A stretch of DNA of 64,000 nt. It comes from Asanoa iriomotensis. GTDB lineage: Bacteria; Actinomycetota; Actinomycetes; Mycobacteriales; Micromonosporaceae. Shown in pieces: positions 40,464-44,789 of the stretch. The notes under the pieces are model-generated. The model had not been told where the DNA came from. It saw nothing but the letters and a program-made list of their open reading frames with translations, and did not search any database. Location of the stretch: assembly GCF_016862515.1 (NCBI RefSeq), contig NZ_BONC01000013.1, positions 62,001-126,000 on the forward strand, in the 5' to 3' direction. The position numbers and the translations under genes are program-made. Positions within the stretch are counted from its first letter, which is position 1. Each line of letters starts with the position of its first letter.

Positions 40464-40568
40464 CTAGCAAAGACCCTAGAAACGCGTAGATGTGGGTACG
40501 GCGTGTCGCGGTCTGGCTTCGTCTAGCGCTTTCTTTGGTTTGTGCTAGACGACGCTAGGTTCGACTAG
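40464..40568. promoter_or_regulatory. Cluster of six CTAG tetramers upstream of the AAA ATPase gene
   Basis: CTAG occurs at 40464, 40476, 40523, 40545, 40555 and 40565, six times in 105 bp, although it is one of the rarest tetramers in high-GC genomes. Two copies lie in an inverted repeat, GTCTAGC (40521-40527) and GCTAGAC (40544-40550). The cluster covers the region just upstream of the ATPase -10 element. Confidence 0.5.
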
Positions 40569-41449
40569 GTGTTGCGGAGCTTGAGGCAGAGCACGTAGTC
40601 GTTGAGGTCGAGCGGGCTGTCGAAGAAGTACCAGTCGGTGTAGCCCTCGACGTCCTTGCACTTCTTCTCCGCGTCGGCCTGCCCGGTGGTCGCCGCGTCG
40701 AAGCGGGCCAGCACCTGGTAGGTCTTCGCGGCGCACTTGGCGATCTCGAGCTTCGGGTCCTCCGCCGAGCCGACGTTCTTGACGCACTGGCCCTTCTTGA
40801 CGAAGCGGGCGTCCGCGGACGACTCGGGCTTCGGCGTCGCGGACTCCTGTGCCGCCTGCGTCGGACCGGCCGACGGGTCGGTCGTGCTCTGGGTGGAGAC
40901 CTGGTCGGTCTCGTCCGGGCGGCCGACGAAGTAGACCGCGGCCGCGCCGCCGCCGCAGACCAGCACGGCGAGGACGACCACCAGGGCGACGATGGGGCTG
41001 CGCTTCTTGCGCGGCGGCTCCTGCGGCGTGGTCCAGGCGGGCTCGGTGCCGTACTGCGGGAAGTTCTGGTCGTACTGCTGTGTCGACTGTCCGTAGTTCG
41101 GCTGGCCGTAGTCCTGCTGGGCGCCGTAGTTGGGCTGGCCGCCGTAGCCTGGCTGGCCACCGTAGGTGGGTTGGCCGCCGTAGCCGGGCTGGCCGCCGCC
41201 TTGGCCGTAGTTCGGCTGGCCGTAGTCGGGTTGGCCGTAGCCCGGGTCGTTCTGCCCGTAGCCCGGGTTGGTGTAGGTGGGTGAGCCGGGTCCGCCGGGT
41301 GGGCTGGACTGCGGCTGGCCACCCCACGGGTCCTGGCCACCCCATGGGTCCGACGGCTGCCCGTACGGGTCGTTCGACGGACGGCCCTGCCAGGGCTCCT
41401 GCGGCTGGCCGTGGTGCGGCCCACCGCTCGGCGGTCCGTAGTTCGACAT
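40565..41449 (-). CDS. LppU/SCO3897-like membrane protein with Tyr/Gly/Gln-rich N terminus
   Basis: A 294-residue protein. Residues 1-145 are low complexity, with repeats such as QPGYGGQPTYGGQPGYGG. A membrane helix follows (PIVALVVVLAVLVCGGGAAA, about 160-180), then a Thr/Ser/Glu linker and an external domain of about 85 residues with four cysteines (KKGQCVKNVG, IAKCAAKTYQV, KKCKDVEGYTDWYF, DYVLCLKL) that could form two disulphides. The final domain resembles the LppU/SCO3897 family. Function is unknown. ATG at 41449 has AGGAGG 8 nt upstream. Confidence 0.86.
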   Translation of the reverse strand: MSNYGPPSGGPHHGQPQEPWQGRPSNDPYGQPSDPWGGQDPWGGQPQSSPPGGPGSPTYTNPGYGQNDPGYGQPDYGQPNYGQGGGQPGYGGQPTYGGQPGYGGQPNYGAQQDYGQPNYGQSTQQYDQNFPQYGTEPAWTTPQEPPRKKRSPIVALVVVLAVLVCGGGAAAVYFVGRPDETDQVSTQSTTDPSAGPTQAAQESATPKPESSADARFVKKGQCVKNVGSAEDPKLEIAKCAAKTYQVLARFDAATTGQADAEKKCKDVEGYTDWYFFDSPLDLNDYVLCLKLRNT

Positions 41450-41567
41450 GGACGTTTCCTCCTGGCCGAGGGAGTCTTCATCGGTGGCTCTGGTCACCGT
41501 AGCGTCTGACCGGGTGGTGCTCACCTCCCGGAACCGCGCCAAACGTACCCCTGGCCGATGACGCGGT

Positions 41568-44500
41568 TCAGATCAGGCGCAGTTGCCGGTCCTTGGGTCG
41601 GCGTTCCTCGGTCGCGCCGAGCCGCTCGAAGAGGCCGGCGTCGATCGCGTCGAGGAACGGCGTCGGGCCGGTGTCCCGCTCGGAGCCGAGCCGGAACCGG
41701 CGCTGTGCGTGCGATATGTAGAGGCGGTCCTGCGCGCGGGTCACCCCGACGAAGAACAGCCGGCGCTCCTCCGCGACGTCGTCGTCCGTGTTCCGGTCGA
41801 ACATCCGCAGCGGCAGCAGGCCGTCCTCGCAGCCGACCAGGAAGACCACGGGGAACTCGAGGCCCTTGGCGGCGTGCAGGGTGAGCAGCGTGACGGCCTC
41901 GGCGCGGGGGTCGAGGGCGTCCACCTCGGCACCGGTGGCGAGTTGCGCGAGGAACTGCTCGAGGTCGTTGCCGCAACGCTGGGCCAGCGGGGTCAACACC
42001 TCGACGGCCGACCAGACATCGGCCGGGCTCGGGGCGTTGCCGGTGCTGTCCAGCGTGGGTGTCGCGAACCGTTCGGCCAGCAGTTGGCCGGCTCGGCGTA
42101 CGCGTGCGGGCAGTTCGGTCTGTGGGGTGTCGGTGTTCGCGAGCCGCAGCTCACGGGCGATTGCCGCAACGCCGGCGCGGTCGCGGAGCCGGTTGTGCGA
42201 GCGCTTCTGCACCGGGATGCCGGCCCGCGACAGCGCCTCGAGGATCGGGGCCGCCTGCTGGTCGGTGCGGTAGAGGACGGCGACGTCGGAGAACGAGACC
42301 CCGGCCGCGTTGCCGCTGATCCGGCCCGAGTCGAGGGAGCGGTGGGAGAGGCCACCGACCAGGTCGTCGATGGTACGGGCGACGAAGTCGGCCTCGTCCG
42401 TGGCCGTCGTGGCGGGGTAGCGGCCGACCAGGGGCGCCTCGGGGTCGAGCCGGGCCGGGTCGAGGCGGCGGCCGCGGACCAGCGACGAGGGCGCGATCGC
42501 CTGCACGGCGGCGGCCAGGATCGGCGCGGACGAGCGGTAGTTGCGGGTCAGCCGCACGAGGCGCGCGTCGGTGAAGTCCTCCCCGAAGCGCAGGAAGTAG
42601 CCGACGTCGGCGCCGCGGAACGAGTAGATCGCCTGGTCCGGGTCGCCGATCGCGCAGAGGTTGCCGTCGGGCGGGCAGAGCAGGCGCAGCAGCTCGTACT
42701 GCGTGTCGTCGACGTCCTGGTACTCGTCGACGAAGATCCACCGCCAGCGGCCCTGGTAGCGGTCGACCAGGTCCGGGTCCTTGCGCAGGAGCTGCAGCGG
42801 GAGCGTGACCAGCTCGTCGAGGTCGACCAGGTCCTGGCCGCGGAGCAGCTTGACGTAGGTCGCGTCGTCGTCGCCGGCCTCCTTGCGGGCGGCCTCGCGC
42901 TCGGTGTCGTCGGCGATCCGGAAGTCTTTCGGCAGGCCGGCGGCGGCCGCGTTCTCGCGCAGGATGGTCAGGCCGAGGGAGTGGAAGGTCGCGACGGTGA
43001 CGTCCTGGGCGACCGGGCCGAGCAGGCCGTCCAGTCTGGTGCGCAGCTCTTCGGCGGCCCGCCTCGTGAACGTGATCGCGAGGCAGTGCTCGGCGAAGAC
43101 GCCGAGCTCGGCGCAGAGGTACGCGATGCGGTGGGTGAGCGTGCGGGTCTTGCCGGTGCCGGGGCCGGCGACGATCAGCATGGGGCCGCCGGGTGCGGAG
43201 GCGGCGACGCGCTGCATGGCGTCGAGGCGGTCGAGCAGGCCGGTGCCGACCTCCTCCATGCCGGCGAGCATGGGCTCGAACGGCTCGTGGGGTGAAACCT
43301 GCGGTGGTGGCGGGATCGGGGGTTCGACGCGCTTGACCGGGCCGCGGCGGGCTGAGCCCTCGGAGGGGCGGTCCCGTGGCGTGGCTTTCTTCTTCGTCTG
43401 CTTCGGCACGTCGAAGAGGGTGTCGGCCTGTGGGGTGCTGCTGGGCAGCTCGTCCTTGTCGAAGACGCGGATGATGCCGTAGGCGCCGTCGTAGCCGGGT
43501 GTGCGGTGGACCTCGCCGCGGCGGAGGCGGCGGATGGCCTCTTCGAGGTGGTCGCCGCCCGTCTTCTTGATGTCGTCGAGCGGGGTGTCGCGGAGGACGG
43601 TCAGCTCGGGGCCCAGGTTGGCGACGAGGGTGTTGAGCTTGCCTTCCACGGTTTTGGATCTCGGACCGACGCCGTTTATCTCGCCGAGGATCTCGGCTAG
43701 GGCGAGGAGGTGCTGGGTCGGCTTCCGATTTTTGCGGATTTCTCCGTCATGTCGGTCGGCGAGGTCTTCGACTCGACTGAGGACGCCGATGGTCAAGGGT
43801 TTGTGGCATTGCGGGCACAGGCCGCCGGCCTGGCGGGTCTGCGCCGGTTCCCAGTTGACGCCGCAGAGGCGGTGGCCGTCGGCGTGGTACTTGCCCTCCT
43901 CGGGGAAGAACTCCAGCGTGCCGGCCAGGCCGTCGCCGGTTCTGAGGGCTTCGCGCACGGCGAAGTAGTCGAGGTCCGTGTCCAGGACGGTCGCTTCGCG
44001 GGCGAGGGCCGGCGGCGAGTGGGCGTCCGAGTTGGAGACCAGTTGGTAGCGGTCGAGGCTGGATACGCGCCAGTTCATCGCGGGGTCGGAGGACAGGCCG
44101 GTCTCGACGGCGAAGATGTGGTCGGCCAGGTCGGCGTAGCAGTCGGCGATCGCGTCGAAGCCGGACTTGCTGCCGAGGGCGGAGAACCAGGGGGTCCAGA
44201 TGTGGGCCGGGACGAGGTAGCCGTCCGGGCTCGCCTCCAGCGTGATCTCGAGGAGGTCGCGGGAGTCGAGGCCGAGGATCGGGCGCCCGTCGGAGGCGAG
44301 GTTGCCGACGCGGCCGAGCGCGGCGTTGAACCGGGCCACGGCCTCGAGGTCGGGCAGGTAGATCAGGTGGTGCACCTTGCGGGTGCGGTCGTCCCGCTTG
44401 TAGATCGTGGAGATCTCGACGGAGAGGGTGAACCGGATCTGTTCCTCGGTCGCTGCCAGCCTCGGCGGGAGCTGTTTCGTGGCGGCCTGCTCGGCGTCGC

Positions 44501-44720
44501 GGCTGAGTCGGAAGAGTCCGGGTTCGGCCGGTTGGAGGTTTTCCCTCAGGTGGTCGTACCAGGCCGGGTGGGTGAAGTCGCCGGTGCCGAGGAGGGTGAC
44601 GCCCTTGCGGCGCGCCCAGAGTGCGAGGTTGGGGAGGGTTAGGTCGCGACTGCAGGCGCGTGAGTACTTGGAGTGGATGTGCAGATCCGCGACGAAGGGT
44701 GCGGCGGCGTACGGAGGCAC
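41568..44720 (-). CDS. EndoQ-like PHP endonuclease fused to UvrD/PcrA-type helicase
   Basis: A 1050-residue fusion. Residues 1-440 match the EndoQ (TIGR00375) layout: PHP motif FVADLHIHSKYSRACS near the N terminus, GTGDFTHPAW, SNSDAHSPPALAREATVLD, and a zinc module CGVNWEPAQ...CPQCHKPLTIGV near 285-310, then a helical domain with the EINGVGPRSKTVEGKLN hairpin. A Pro/Lys linker leads to a superfamily 1A helicase (about 490-1050): AGPGTGKTRTLTHRIAYL (Walker A, about 515), WIFVDEYQDVDDTQYELL, GDPDQAIYSFRGAD, RLTRNYRSS and VTLLTLHAAKGLEFPVVFLV. EndoQ nicks DNA 5' of deaminated bases, and UvrD unwinds from nicks. GTG at 44720 is chosen by position; an upstream start would add 15 residues. It follows a metallophosphoesterase gene. 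Confidence 0.9.
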   Translation of the reverse strand: MPPYAAAPFVADLHIHSKYSRACSRDLTLPNLALWARRKGVTLLGTGDFTHPAWYDHLRENLQPAEPGLFRLSRDAEQAATKQLPPRLAATEEQIRFTLSVEISTIYKRDDRTRKVHHLIYLPDLEAVARFNAALGRVGNLASDGRPILGLDSRDLLEITLEASPDGYLVPAHIWTPWFSALGSKSGFDAIADCYADLADHIFAVETGLSSDPAMNWRVSSLDRYQLVSNSDAHSPPALAREATVLDTDLDYFAVREALRTGDGLAGTLEFFPEEGKYHADGHRLCGVNWEPAQTRQAGGLCPQCHKPLTIGVLSRVEDLADRHDGEIRKNRKPTQHLLALAEILGEINGVGPRSKTVEGKLNTLVANLGPELTVLRDTPLDDIKKTGGDHLEEAIRRLRRGEVHRTPGYDGAYGIIRVFDKDELPSSTPQADTLFDVPKQTKKKATPRDRPSEGSARRGPVKRVEPPIPPPPQVSPHEPFEPMLAGMEEVGTGLLDRLDAMQRVAASAPGGPMLIVAGPGTGKTRTLTHRIAYLCAELGVFAEHCLAITFTRRAAEELRTRLDGLLGPVAQDVTVATFHSLGLTILRENAAAAGLPKDFRIADDTEREAARKEAGDDDATYVKLLRGQDLVDLDELVTLPLQLLRKDPDLVDRYQGRWRWIFVDEYQDVDDTQYELLRLLCPPDGNLCAIGDPDQAIYSFRGADVGYFLRFGEDFTDARLVRLTRNYRSSAPILAAAVQAIAPSSLVRGRRLDPARLDPEAPLVGRYPATTATDEADFVARTIDDLVGGLSHRSLDSGRISGNAAGVSFSDVAVLYRTDQQAAPILEALSRAGIPVQKRSHNRLRDRAGVAAIARELRLANTDTPQTELPARVRRAGQLLAERFATPTLDSTGNAPSPADVWSAVEVLTPLAQRCGNDLEQFLAQLATGAEVDALDPRAEAVTLLTLHAAKGLEFPVVFLVGCEDGLLPLRMFDRNTDDDVAEERRLFFVGVTRAQDRLYISHAQRRFRLGSERDTGPTPFLDAIDAGLFERLGATEERRPKDRQLRLI

Positions 44721-44789
44721 GCCGCATAGTGCCACGCCCCGCCGCCGAACGGGGTGACCGTCCACCGTGGTGCGGCGTGTCGCACAGCG

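Follow-up and report, generated by a model that had tools for sequence, protein, structure and literature searches.

Joined in one reading frame of the soil bacterium Asanoa iriomotensis are an EndoQ-like endonuclease and a UvrD-type helicase, and the question raised by this locus is whether the two halves act as one repair enzyme and, if so, where on DNA it would work. The window analysed here, a stretch of 64,000 nucleotides, carries the fusion gene on its minus strand at 41568..44720 (1050 codons plus a stop, read from a GTG start at 44720 down to 41568, giving 1050 aa). An alternative in-frame GTG start is possible at 44765, the conserved stretch beginning only at about residue 11, and a neighbouring gene lies at 40565-41542.

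A conserved fusion family and its two modules

The EndoQ-UvrD fusion is a conserved protein family in which both modules are intact. Among the A. iriomotensis fusion and 80 loci from other genome contigs, a frame could be read in 80 of 81 cases, and 79 of these 80 frames encode both modules, the exception (L045) being cut by a contig end, while the 81st locus (L090) is a stand-alone EndoQ. The single frame reported in the earlier note thus recurs across loci and is no assembly accident; an assembly or frame artefact was ruled out on the same count. In a second phylum, all 20 long frames fetched hold both modules. Within the host's family, EndoQ was found in 105 of the 121 genomes sampled, 98 of them in frames of at least 950 aa, and in one bacterial phylum 162 of 247 sampled genomes have an EndoQ match with an E value of at most 0.001, weak in a few cases, which makes the enzyme less rare than the "few bacteria" of the earlier note. 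The ortholog of Asanoa siamensis (L011) shows 91% identity over the aligned region. Three actinobacterial genomes encode EndoQ alone, the helicase having apparently been lost. No report of an EndoQ-UvrD fusion was found in the literature searched.

The EndoQ module spans 43461..44699 on the minus strand (approximately residues 8-420, delimited by phmmer, Foldseek and a confident structure model) and comprises PHP catalytic, zinc-binding and helical domains. It matches PfuEndoQ (5zb8/7k30) with a phmmer E value of 6e-45 in two stretches, and the predicted structure aligns to 5zb8 with a TM score of 0.88 (by target length, 435 columns) and to the dU-DNA complex 7k30 with 0.86, both the zinc-binding and the C-terminal helical domain being retained in the Foldseek comparison. 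The fusion resembles archaeal and Bacillus EndoQ in its whole fold and active site, as well as in the clamp-directing motif that closes the module (a PIP box to PCNA in archaea), whereas known EndoQ proteins are stand-alone, of about 400 aa and with a CCCC zinc site, and the fusion has an HCCC site and a UvrD-type helicase after the motif.

Residues of the PHP active site (44025..44681, minus strand) align to PfuEndoQ as H14=H8, H16=H10, D48=D42, E102=E76, H117=H84, H173=H139 and D232=D193, with H234=H195 just outside this span; E102 was assigned from alignments A1-A3 and residue order, as HMMER left that loop unaligned. The uracil/hypoxanthine pocket is completed by G208 and S210, corresponding to Pfu G169 and S171. 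The roles of E76, H84, H139, G169 and S171, and of these only, are taken from PMC8307549. The metal ligands and catalytic Glu, His and Asp residues are invariant in all 55 aligned fusions (A2) and in the 22 rows of A3, as are the pocket residues H173, G208 and S210 and the zinc ligands H283, C286, C302 and C305 (43806..43874, minus strand; placed by alignment to PfuEndoQ), in which His replaces the first Pfu Cys, C249. The complete PHP/zinc/helical module proposed from the sequence, with every active-site ligand in place and close structural similarity to known EndoQ, is thereby upheld.

These residues bear on the improbable alternative that the EndoQ half has lost recognition of deaminated bases and has drifted, in the manner of PHP domains associated with polymerases, towards processing nothing but 3' ends or AP sites. 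Such drift would be in line with the His-for-Cys exchange and with a match to NCBIfam TIGR00375 (E=2e-43, 149 bits) that stays under the curated cut-off of 326.6 bits, a cut-off that no match in the 247 bacterial genomes of the sampled phylum, stand-alone EndoQ included, exceeds in this hypothetical-equivalog model. However, the positions of Pfu H139, G169, S171, E76 and H84 show no variation in the 55 fusions and the 22 A3 rows, the EndoQ zinc and helical domains are retained, and the bacterial EndoQ proteins that stand alone in A3 (21 rows) have the same His-for-Cys exchange.

The second half holds a complete SF1A helicase in the same frame, as the earlier note had read it. Its core (approximately residues 493-1037; 41610..43244, minus strand; bounded by Pfam and the structure model) matches Pfam UvrD-helicase (E=9e-63) and UvrD_C (E=1e-33), and 13 residues of motifs I, II, III, V and VI are invariant in 55 of 55 aligned fusions, including those of motif I or Walker A (GPGTGKT, residues 519-525, 43146..43166), motif II (DEYQD, residues 665-669, 42714..42728) and motif VI (EERRLFFVGVTRA, residues 984-996, 41733..41771), all on the minus strand. 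The predicted half resembles the UvrD-DNA complex 2is1 with a Foldseek TM score of 0.72. The fold and the tested residues of the core motifs are shared with UvrD, PcrA and Rep, whereas the helicase half of the fusion, of about 560 aa, ends in a clamp-type motif and gives no match to the C-terminal Tudor domain of PcrA/UvrD (PF21196) at E values up to 1. Since this domain is missing from the fusion, the protein is regarded as a UvrD-family helicase rather than a PcrA/UvrD ortholog; the domain is present in the PcrA-like protein of the same genome (L160), and a tree places the fusion helicase outside a group of 30 conventional UvrD/PcrA/UvrD2 rows.

The combination of a nuclease with a UvrD-type helicase also recalls the defence system Gabija (GajA-GajB), and a role against phage DNA that contains uracil or inosine or is unusual in other ways was weighed but is judged highly improbable. 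In PADLOC the helicase half indeed scores best against the profile of GajB, the UvrD-type helicase of Gabija (E=2e-72), and among the 25 of 52 families listed from the scan of the fusion protein, 24 were GajB and one a DRT helicase, all on the helicase half; moreover, a review holds that bacterial EndoQ may participate in antiviral defence. However, the GajB match is generic, because PcrA scores higher (369 versus 243 bits), and the nuclease half is an EndoQ of PHP fold, GajA being an unrelated nuclease. Gabija is not known to carry a clamp motif. In tblastn searches, the EndoQ half had no relative in 72,556 plasmid records (E 1e-10) or in 50,697 phage records (E 1e-5). Its chromosomal context is conserved, with a relative of the upstream phosphoesterase gene present in 45 of 80 loci and one of the downstream AAA_16 gene in 38 of 80, and its prevalence in the host's family likewise argues against defence. 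A defence-island gene was rejected on synteny.

Clamp-binding-like motifs at the ends of both halves

In the structure model the two halves are joined by a disordered, hypervariable linker (residues 429-492; 43245..43436, minus strand; pLDDT < 50), with a pTM of 0.57 and no confident interdomain placement; over residues 438-492 the mean top-residue fraction is 0.20. At the start of this linker lies the motif QADTLFD (residues 431-437; 43410..43430, minus strand), which aligns in A3 with the C-terminal clamp-type motif at which stand-alone EndoQ proteins end. L435 is kept in 54 and F436 in 50 of 55 fusions, and both in all 22 rows of A3. A Gln 3-4 residues ahead of LF occurs in only 43 of 77 fusions and is absent in many lineages; according to PMC11139829, this residue of the clamp motif raises affinity yet is not essential. 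Among stand-alone EndoQ proteins, a loose clamp pattern falls within the last 12 residues in 33 of 38 (the exceptions being L090, L143, L151, L153 and L217), compared with 4 of 891 controls.

The helicase half terminates in QLRLI (residues 1046-1050; 41571..41585, minus strand). Its Gln is present in 55 of 55 aligned fusions and L1049 in 53, while the preceding 20 columns have a mean top-residue fraction of 0.43. QLxL[LFIM] stands at the extreme C-terminus of 68 of 77 full-length fusions, with near variants in eight of the remaining nine, and of none of 583 control C-termini. This tail, disordered in the model (pLDDT < 50), conforms to the beta-clamp pentapeptide, defined in PMC11139829 as Q-aliphatic-x-[LM]-[FL], the A. 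iriomotensis sequence departing from the published form by Ile at position 5, a position occupied in A2 by L (24), F (18), I (11), W (1) and V (1). The loose pattern is missing from six of 74 fused-frame ends: one frame ends early (L020), four have variant endings (L044, L058, L071 and L125), and in L119 the motif lies 10 residues ahead of the end. A model with a single clamp motif was dropped, as the linker motif is separately conserved.

Both halves of the fusion thus end in a sliding-clamp-binding-like motif, through which putative binding to DnaN is suggested by sequence comparison. Precedents exist: archaeal EndoQ binds PCNA via a C-terminal PIP motif that is required for its stimulation (PMC4858679), and clamp binding by actinobacterial NucS requires its C-terminal region (PMC8228993), which in A. 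iriomotensis ends in ELTLF. EndoMS/NucS of Actinomycetota is likewise an endonuclease acting at wrong bases and activated by the clamp via a C-terminal pentapeptide (PMC8228993), but it has a different nuclease fold, makes double-strand breaks at mismatches and lacks a helicase.

Separately encoded EndoQ and clamp-tailed helicase

Separate genes encode EndoQ and a clamp-tailed UvrD-type helicase in another phylum, where the two are adjacent and on the same strand in five genomes; two of these pairs (L207 and L211) rest on search coordinates and, like L106, are absent from the tree. A separate clamp-tailed helicase was confirmed in 29 of 72 genomes with stand-alone EndoQ versus 2 of 80 without EndoQ (Fisher p=2e-9, relatedness ignored), and in 21 of 57 versus 2 of 80 (p=9e-8) once the 15 genomes inspected before model building were removed. 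Eight of the helicases in the search model came from genomes of the set of 72, a bias in favour of these genomes; the draft genomes compared can miss genes, and at least 16 further stand-alone-EndoQ genomes were left out. The 29 include two with LF but no Gln (G581, G543), one with FF (G705), a frame without the motif I stretch (G548), one split over frames (G620) and two cut at a contig edge (G761, G553). A match extending to the last position of model A5 did not by itself count as a clamp tail, so that G567, whose match extends that far but whose actual terminus has no clamp motif, was excluded, as was G602, whose contig stops inside the helicase tail.

The two EndoQ-less genomes with such a helicase, G753 and G522, contain contig-edge fragments and were counted against the link. 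G753 is probably a cut fusion, because its helicase is a near-copy of that of fusion L134 (branch lengths 0.02 and 0.03) on a short contig. Another 24 regions from EndoQ-less genomes had no clamp tail wherever the end was present; that of G722, which ends in MELFY behind a Tudor-like tail, was not counted as one. Together, co-occurrence and adjacency of the separate genes provide independent support for a functional link between incision and unwinding.

This distribution also bears on the view that the two activities are mostly independent and share one chain for co-delivery to the clamp, with no hand-off of the nick: EndoQ would deal with deaminated bases, and the helicase would serve as a general accessory motor held on the clamp, one that might, for instance, remove obstacles at the fork or behind it. 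The long disordered linker, with halves not confidently placed relative to each other, and a separate clamp-like motif on each half are compatible with this, as are the lineages with EndoQ alone and the 43 of 72 stand-alone-EndoQ genomes in which a clamp-tailed helicase was not confirmed (the contig-cut G602 among them), from which EndoQ seems not to need the helicase. On the other hand, a general motor would not explain why the clamp-tailed helicase is nearly absent from EndoQ-less genomes, and co-delivery without hand-off is considered unlikely.

A candidate clamp-tethered nick-and-unwind enzyme

The reading preferred here, and judged somewhat probable, is that the fusion is a repair enzyme for deaminated bases that nicks and unwinds DNA while tethered to the sliding clamp. 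The EndoQ half would flip out a deaminated base (uracil, hypoxanthine or xanthine) or meet an AP site and would cut the strand 5' of the lesion, leaving a 3'-OH and a 5'-phosphate on the lesion nucleotide. The attached motor, presumed to move 3'-to-5', would load at this nick, most probably onto the undamaged strand, and peel the lesion-bearing strand away as a 5' flap. The linker and C-terminal motifs would keep the enzyme on the beta clamp, so that a polymerase on the clamp could take over the 3'-OH and a 5' nuclease the flap. The intact, conserved and fused modules, the clamp-like motif on each and the five adjacent pairs of separate genes are observed; the base specificity, the polarity of the motor and the strand on which it loads, binding to the clamp and the order of events are inferred.

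UvrD moves 3'-to-5' and strips damaged segments in excision repair (PMC7776575). MutL-UvrD mismatch repair follows a similar logic, in which one specific strand is nicked, UvrD then unwinds the DNA, and in many bacteria the clamp takes part (PMC8744996). There the proteins are separate and the targets are mismatches, whereas nick and motor share one chain in the fusion and deamination is its proposed target. The route would be redundant in A. iriomotensis, given four UDG superfamily matches in its genome. Nor does the fusion appear to be the self-contained repair route proposed earlier: a Pfam domain search of the protein found no flap nuclease or polymerase part, and the two clamp-binding-like motifs found instead imply hand-off to other proteins.

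The joining of nickase and motor, with clamp-like tags on both halves, suggests an undescribed route of bacterial DNA repair. In a broader and evenly balanced proposal, EndoQ and a clamp-tailed, Tudor-less UvrD-family helicase constitute an undescribed bacterial clamp-directed pathway of alternative excision repair, encoded by unlinked genes, by adjacent genes or by one protein with two clamp motifs, the last of which may have arisen by a single fusion followed by later splits. By analogy with NucS on mismatches, the pathway may be directed to one strand and act on dU or dI that arises in new DNA by deamination or misincorporation. The literature consulted names no bacterial protein for the processing of the nick left by EndoQ. 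The fusion family offers a concrete candidate, a helicase attached permanently or encoded separately, together with the sliding clamp as its place of action. Through this family the EndoQ pathway can be put to the test in mesophilic bacteria, and the range of clamp-directed repair systems is extended in Actinomycetota, where NucS already depends on the clamp.

Domain architecture and active sites

The EndoQ-UvrD fusion gene lies on the minus strand (44720..41568) and encodes 1050 residues from a GTG start, with the GTG at 44720 numbered here as residue 1. Residues ~8-420 match TIGR00375 and archaeal PfuEndoQ (5zb8, E=6e-45; also 7k30, a dU-DNA complex), and residues ~493-1037 match UvrD/PcrA. 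An AlphaFold2 model, built on an alignment of 55 fusions (A2), contains two confident bodies (mean pLDDT 86.7, pTM 0.57), with the linker (429-492) and the tail (1038-1050) predicted to be disordered; because pTM is 0.57, the placement of the EndoQ body relative to the helicase body is not predicted. When the model was compared with known EndoQ structures by Foldseek, as the earlier note had proposed, the EndoQ fold gave TM 0.88 to PfuEndoQ and 0.86 to 7k30, and the helicase fold matched UvrD bound to DNA (2is1, TM 0.72 when normalised by target length).

Residues H14, H16, D48, H117, H173, D232 and H234 align to Pfu H8, H10, D42, H84, H139, D193 and H195, and G208 and S210 to Pfu G169 and S171; E102 occupies the position of Pfu E76, in a loop left unaligned by HMMER. 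In the Pfu enzyme, Glu76, His84 and His139 are described as coordinating the catalytic zinc, with the alanine mutant of each being dead, and T and A are hindered by His139, Gly169 and Ser171 (PMC8307549). All these EndoQ residues are invariant, both in the 55 fusions and in the 22 rows of alignment A3 (the window's protein plus 21 stand-alone EndoQ). The zinc-finger ligands are H283, C286, C302 and C305, and the replacement of one Cys by His is common to all 22 A3 rows. The 13 helicase residues checked (motifs I, II, III, V and VI) are also invariant. Given this invariance of active-site, pocket and helicase residues, neither half looks like a relic. Sequence matches, active-site residues and folds bear out the view of a complete EndoQ-like module joined to an SF1A helicase in one frame, and the PHP metal ligands, whose absence was to have counted against it, are present.

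The product of the downstream neighbour gene (40565-41542, minus strand) has an N-terminus rich in Gly, Tyr, Gln and Pro, followed by a single probable membrane helix and a small domain at the C-terminus. It has no Pfam match over cut-off, and its relatives were detected in 40/80 loci (tblastn, E 1e-5).

Distribution and history of the fusion

The suggested survey of domain fusions in actinobacteria found EndoQ matches in 105/121 genomes of the window's own family; judged by frame length alone, 98 of these matches lie in frames that reach 950 aa. Among 396 sampled Actinomycetota genomes, nine contained TIGR00375 matches: two weak PHP-only, one stand-alone EndoQ (G275), one running off its contig (G028), and five, including the window's, in frames that span 1073 aa or more. 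A scan of named genomes covered the best 80 of 585 loci encoding a relative, from Micromonosporaceae, Pseudonocardiaceae, Frankiaceae, Streptosporangiaceae and others, as well as MAGs labelled Acidobacteriota, Binatia and Proteobacteria. With the window included, a frame was read at 80 of the 81 loci, and both halves are present in 79 of them; L045 is truncated by a contig end, and the remaining locus, L090, encodes a stand-alone EndoQ. In the second phylum (that of the Binatia-labelled genome G517), 162/247 genomes match EndoQ at E 0.001 or better and many carry stand-alone EndoQ; 58 frames of at least 900 aa are among the matches listed, and the helicase is present in 20/20 of the long frames fetched.

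Such fusions are very likely present in public protein databases under generic helicase names. Within the literature searched, no published report was found of an EndoQ-UvrD fusion (a mention in the 2020 J. Bacteriol. EndoQ paper or in subscription papers is possible), nor of a clamp-tailed UvrD partner of EndoQ; in PMC7776575, which names both EndoQ and UvrD, no link between them was found.

In the EndoQ tree, the 52 fused rows all fall within a single group (99/97), which also includes four rows of stand-alone EndoQ and one from an adjacent pair, and the adjacent unfused pairs of loci L152 and L212 branch immediately outside it. As four changes of state explain this tree, one fusion followed by later splits or losses would fit, though short of proof. 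The Actinomycetota EndoQ-only genes of L090, L153 and L154 are nested among the fusions and terminate directly after the linker motif; no helicase frame was found in their fetched stretches, and the helicase has apparently been lost. In the helicase tree, a branch (99) separates the 30 conventional UvrD/PcrA/UvrD2 rows from the clamp-tailed helicases, both fused and separate; this tree was made by a quick method with SH-aLRT as its only support measure, and it has several long branches and uneven composition. Very divergent clamp-tailed UvrD-type helicases of ~500-570 aa from stand-alone-EndoQ genomes (L199, L200, L219, L220, L223, L224, L225) form a group distant from the others in this tree.

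Clamp-type motifs and separate helicase partners

The clamp-binding motif has been defined as Q-aliphatic-x-[L/M]-[F/L], with an alternative of six residues (PMC11139829); UvrD and EndoQ are absent from the main text of that source. Among 77 fusions that are full-length and closed at the 3' end, 68 terminate in an exact QLxL[LFIM], eight carry variant termini (QLRLV twice, QFRLW, QPKLI, QETLF, QQRLF, QPRLL, QMRLL), and L061 has QLSLL 12 residues upstream of its C-terminus. At this motif, Q is conserved in 55/55 and L1049 in 53/55 A2 rows, and the mean top-residue fraction over the 20 preceding columns is 0.43. The exact pattern occurs in 0/583 control proxy-gene C-termini of the same loci. In a wider control of C-termini, the strict clamp pattern was found in 0/891 and the loose one in 4/891, the corresponding counts for fused frames being 46/74 and 68/74. 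The fusion of L074, labelled Rhodococcus rhodnii, resembles that of Kibdelosporangium philippinense (L077) in linker and tail; the species label of L074 is possibly wrong, since its genome measures 12.4 Mb.

A second motif lies in the linker (QADTLFD in the window), with L435 in 54/55 and F436 in 50/55 A2 rows. Stand-alone EndoQ C-termini fall at this position or a few residues off; LF is found there in 22/22 A3 rows, Q at column 432, three residues ahead of L, in 18/22, and the loose clamp pattern within the last 12 residues of 33/38 stand-alone EndoQ. Because stand-alone EndoQ ends there with the same LF, the linker motif is most simply read as the former C-terminus of EndoQ. Its archaeal counterpart is the C-terminal site through which EndoQ binds PCNA, and the authors of that work pointed out that EndoQ homologs from bacteria carry clamp motifs as well (PMC4858679). 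The NucS of the window's genome ends in ELTLF, in agreement with the motif that PMC8228993 gives for NucS of actinobacteria.

A profile (A5) built from clamp-tailed helicases, fused as well as separate, was used to search 72 stand-alone-EndoQ genomes from the top of the list, leaving out at least 16 further such genomes, and 80 of 85 EndoQ-less second-phylum genomes, with clamp tails judged from C-termini in fetched loci. In 29/72 of the former, a UvrD-type helicase ending in a clamp-type tail is encoded separately, in frames of 495-732 aa save two broken or cut (369 and 249 aa); Q is missing from the tail in two of the 29 (G581, G543), and G602, truncated at a contig end, is excluded. Only 2/80 EndoQ-less genomes contain one, both at contig edges and one a near-copy of a fusion's helicase; the other candidate helicases examined there have no clamp tail. 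The difference is significant by Fisher's test (p = 2e-9, uncorrected for relatedness) and persists (21/57 vs 2/80, p = 9e-8) without 15 genomes inspected beforehand, eight of which contributed A5 rows. EndoQ and the clamp-tailed helicase are adjacent on the same strand in G654, G644 and G705 (read directly) and in G679 and G590 (adjacency taken from match coordinates); these unfused pairs include those at L152 2692-6407, L212 200-3170 and L217 2-3223. Both separate helicases tested (L198, L152) lack a Tudor match, unlike the PcrA-like protein of the window's genome.

Proposed repair route

EndoQ cleavage is reported to leave 3'-OH and 5'-phosphate ends (PMC4357722), and UvrD has 3'-to-5' polarity (PMC7776575). 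If a motor of this polarity loaded onto the intact strand at the EndoQ nick, it would displace the strand carrying the lesion as a 5' flap, and clamp tethering through the putative binding motifs would hand the 3'-OH to a polymerase. Because of this transfer, the fusion protein is probably not self-contained; the self-contained repair route of the earlier note was not borne out, as the two clamp-type motifs would imply transfer to partner proteins, and neither a flap nuclease nor a polymerase part was found in the protein. Since the same genome contains four matches to the UDG superfamily, the proposed EndoQ-UvrD route would likely operate in parallel to base excision.
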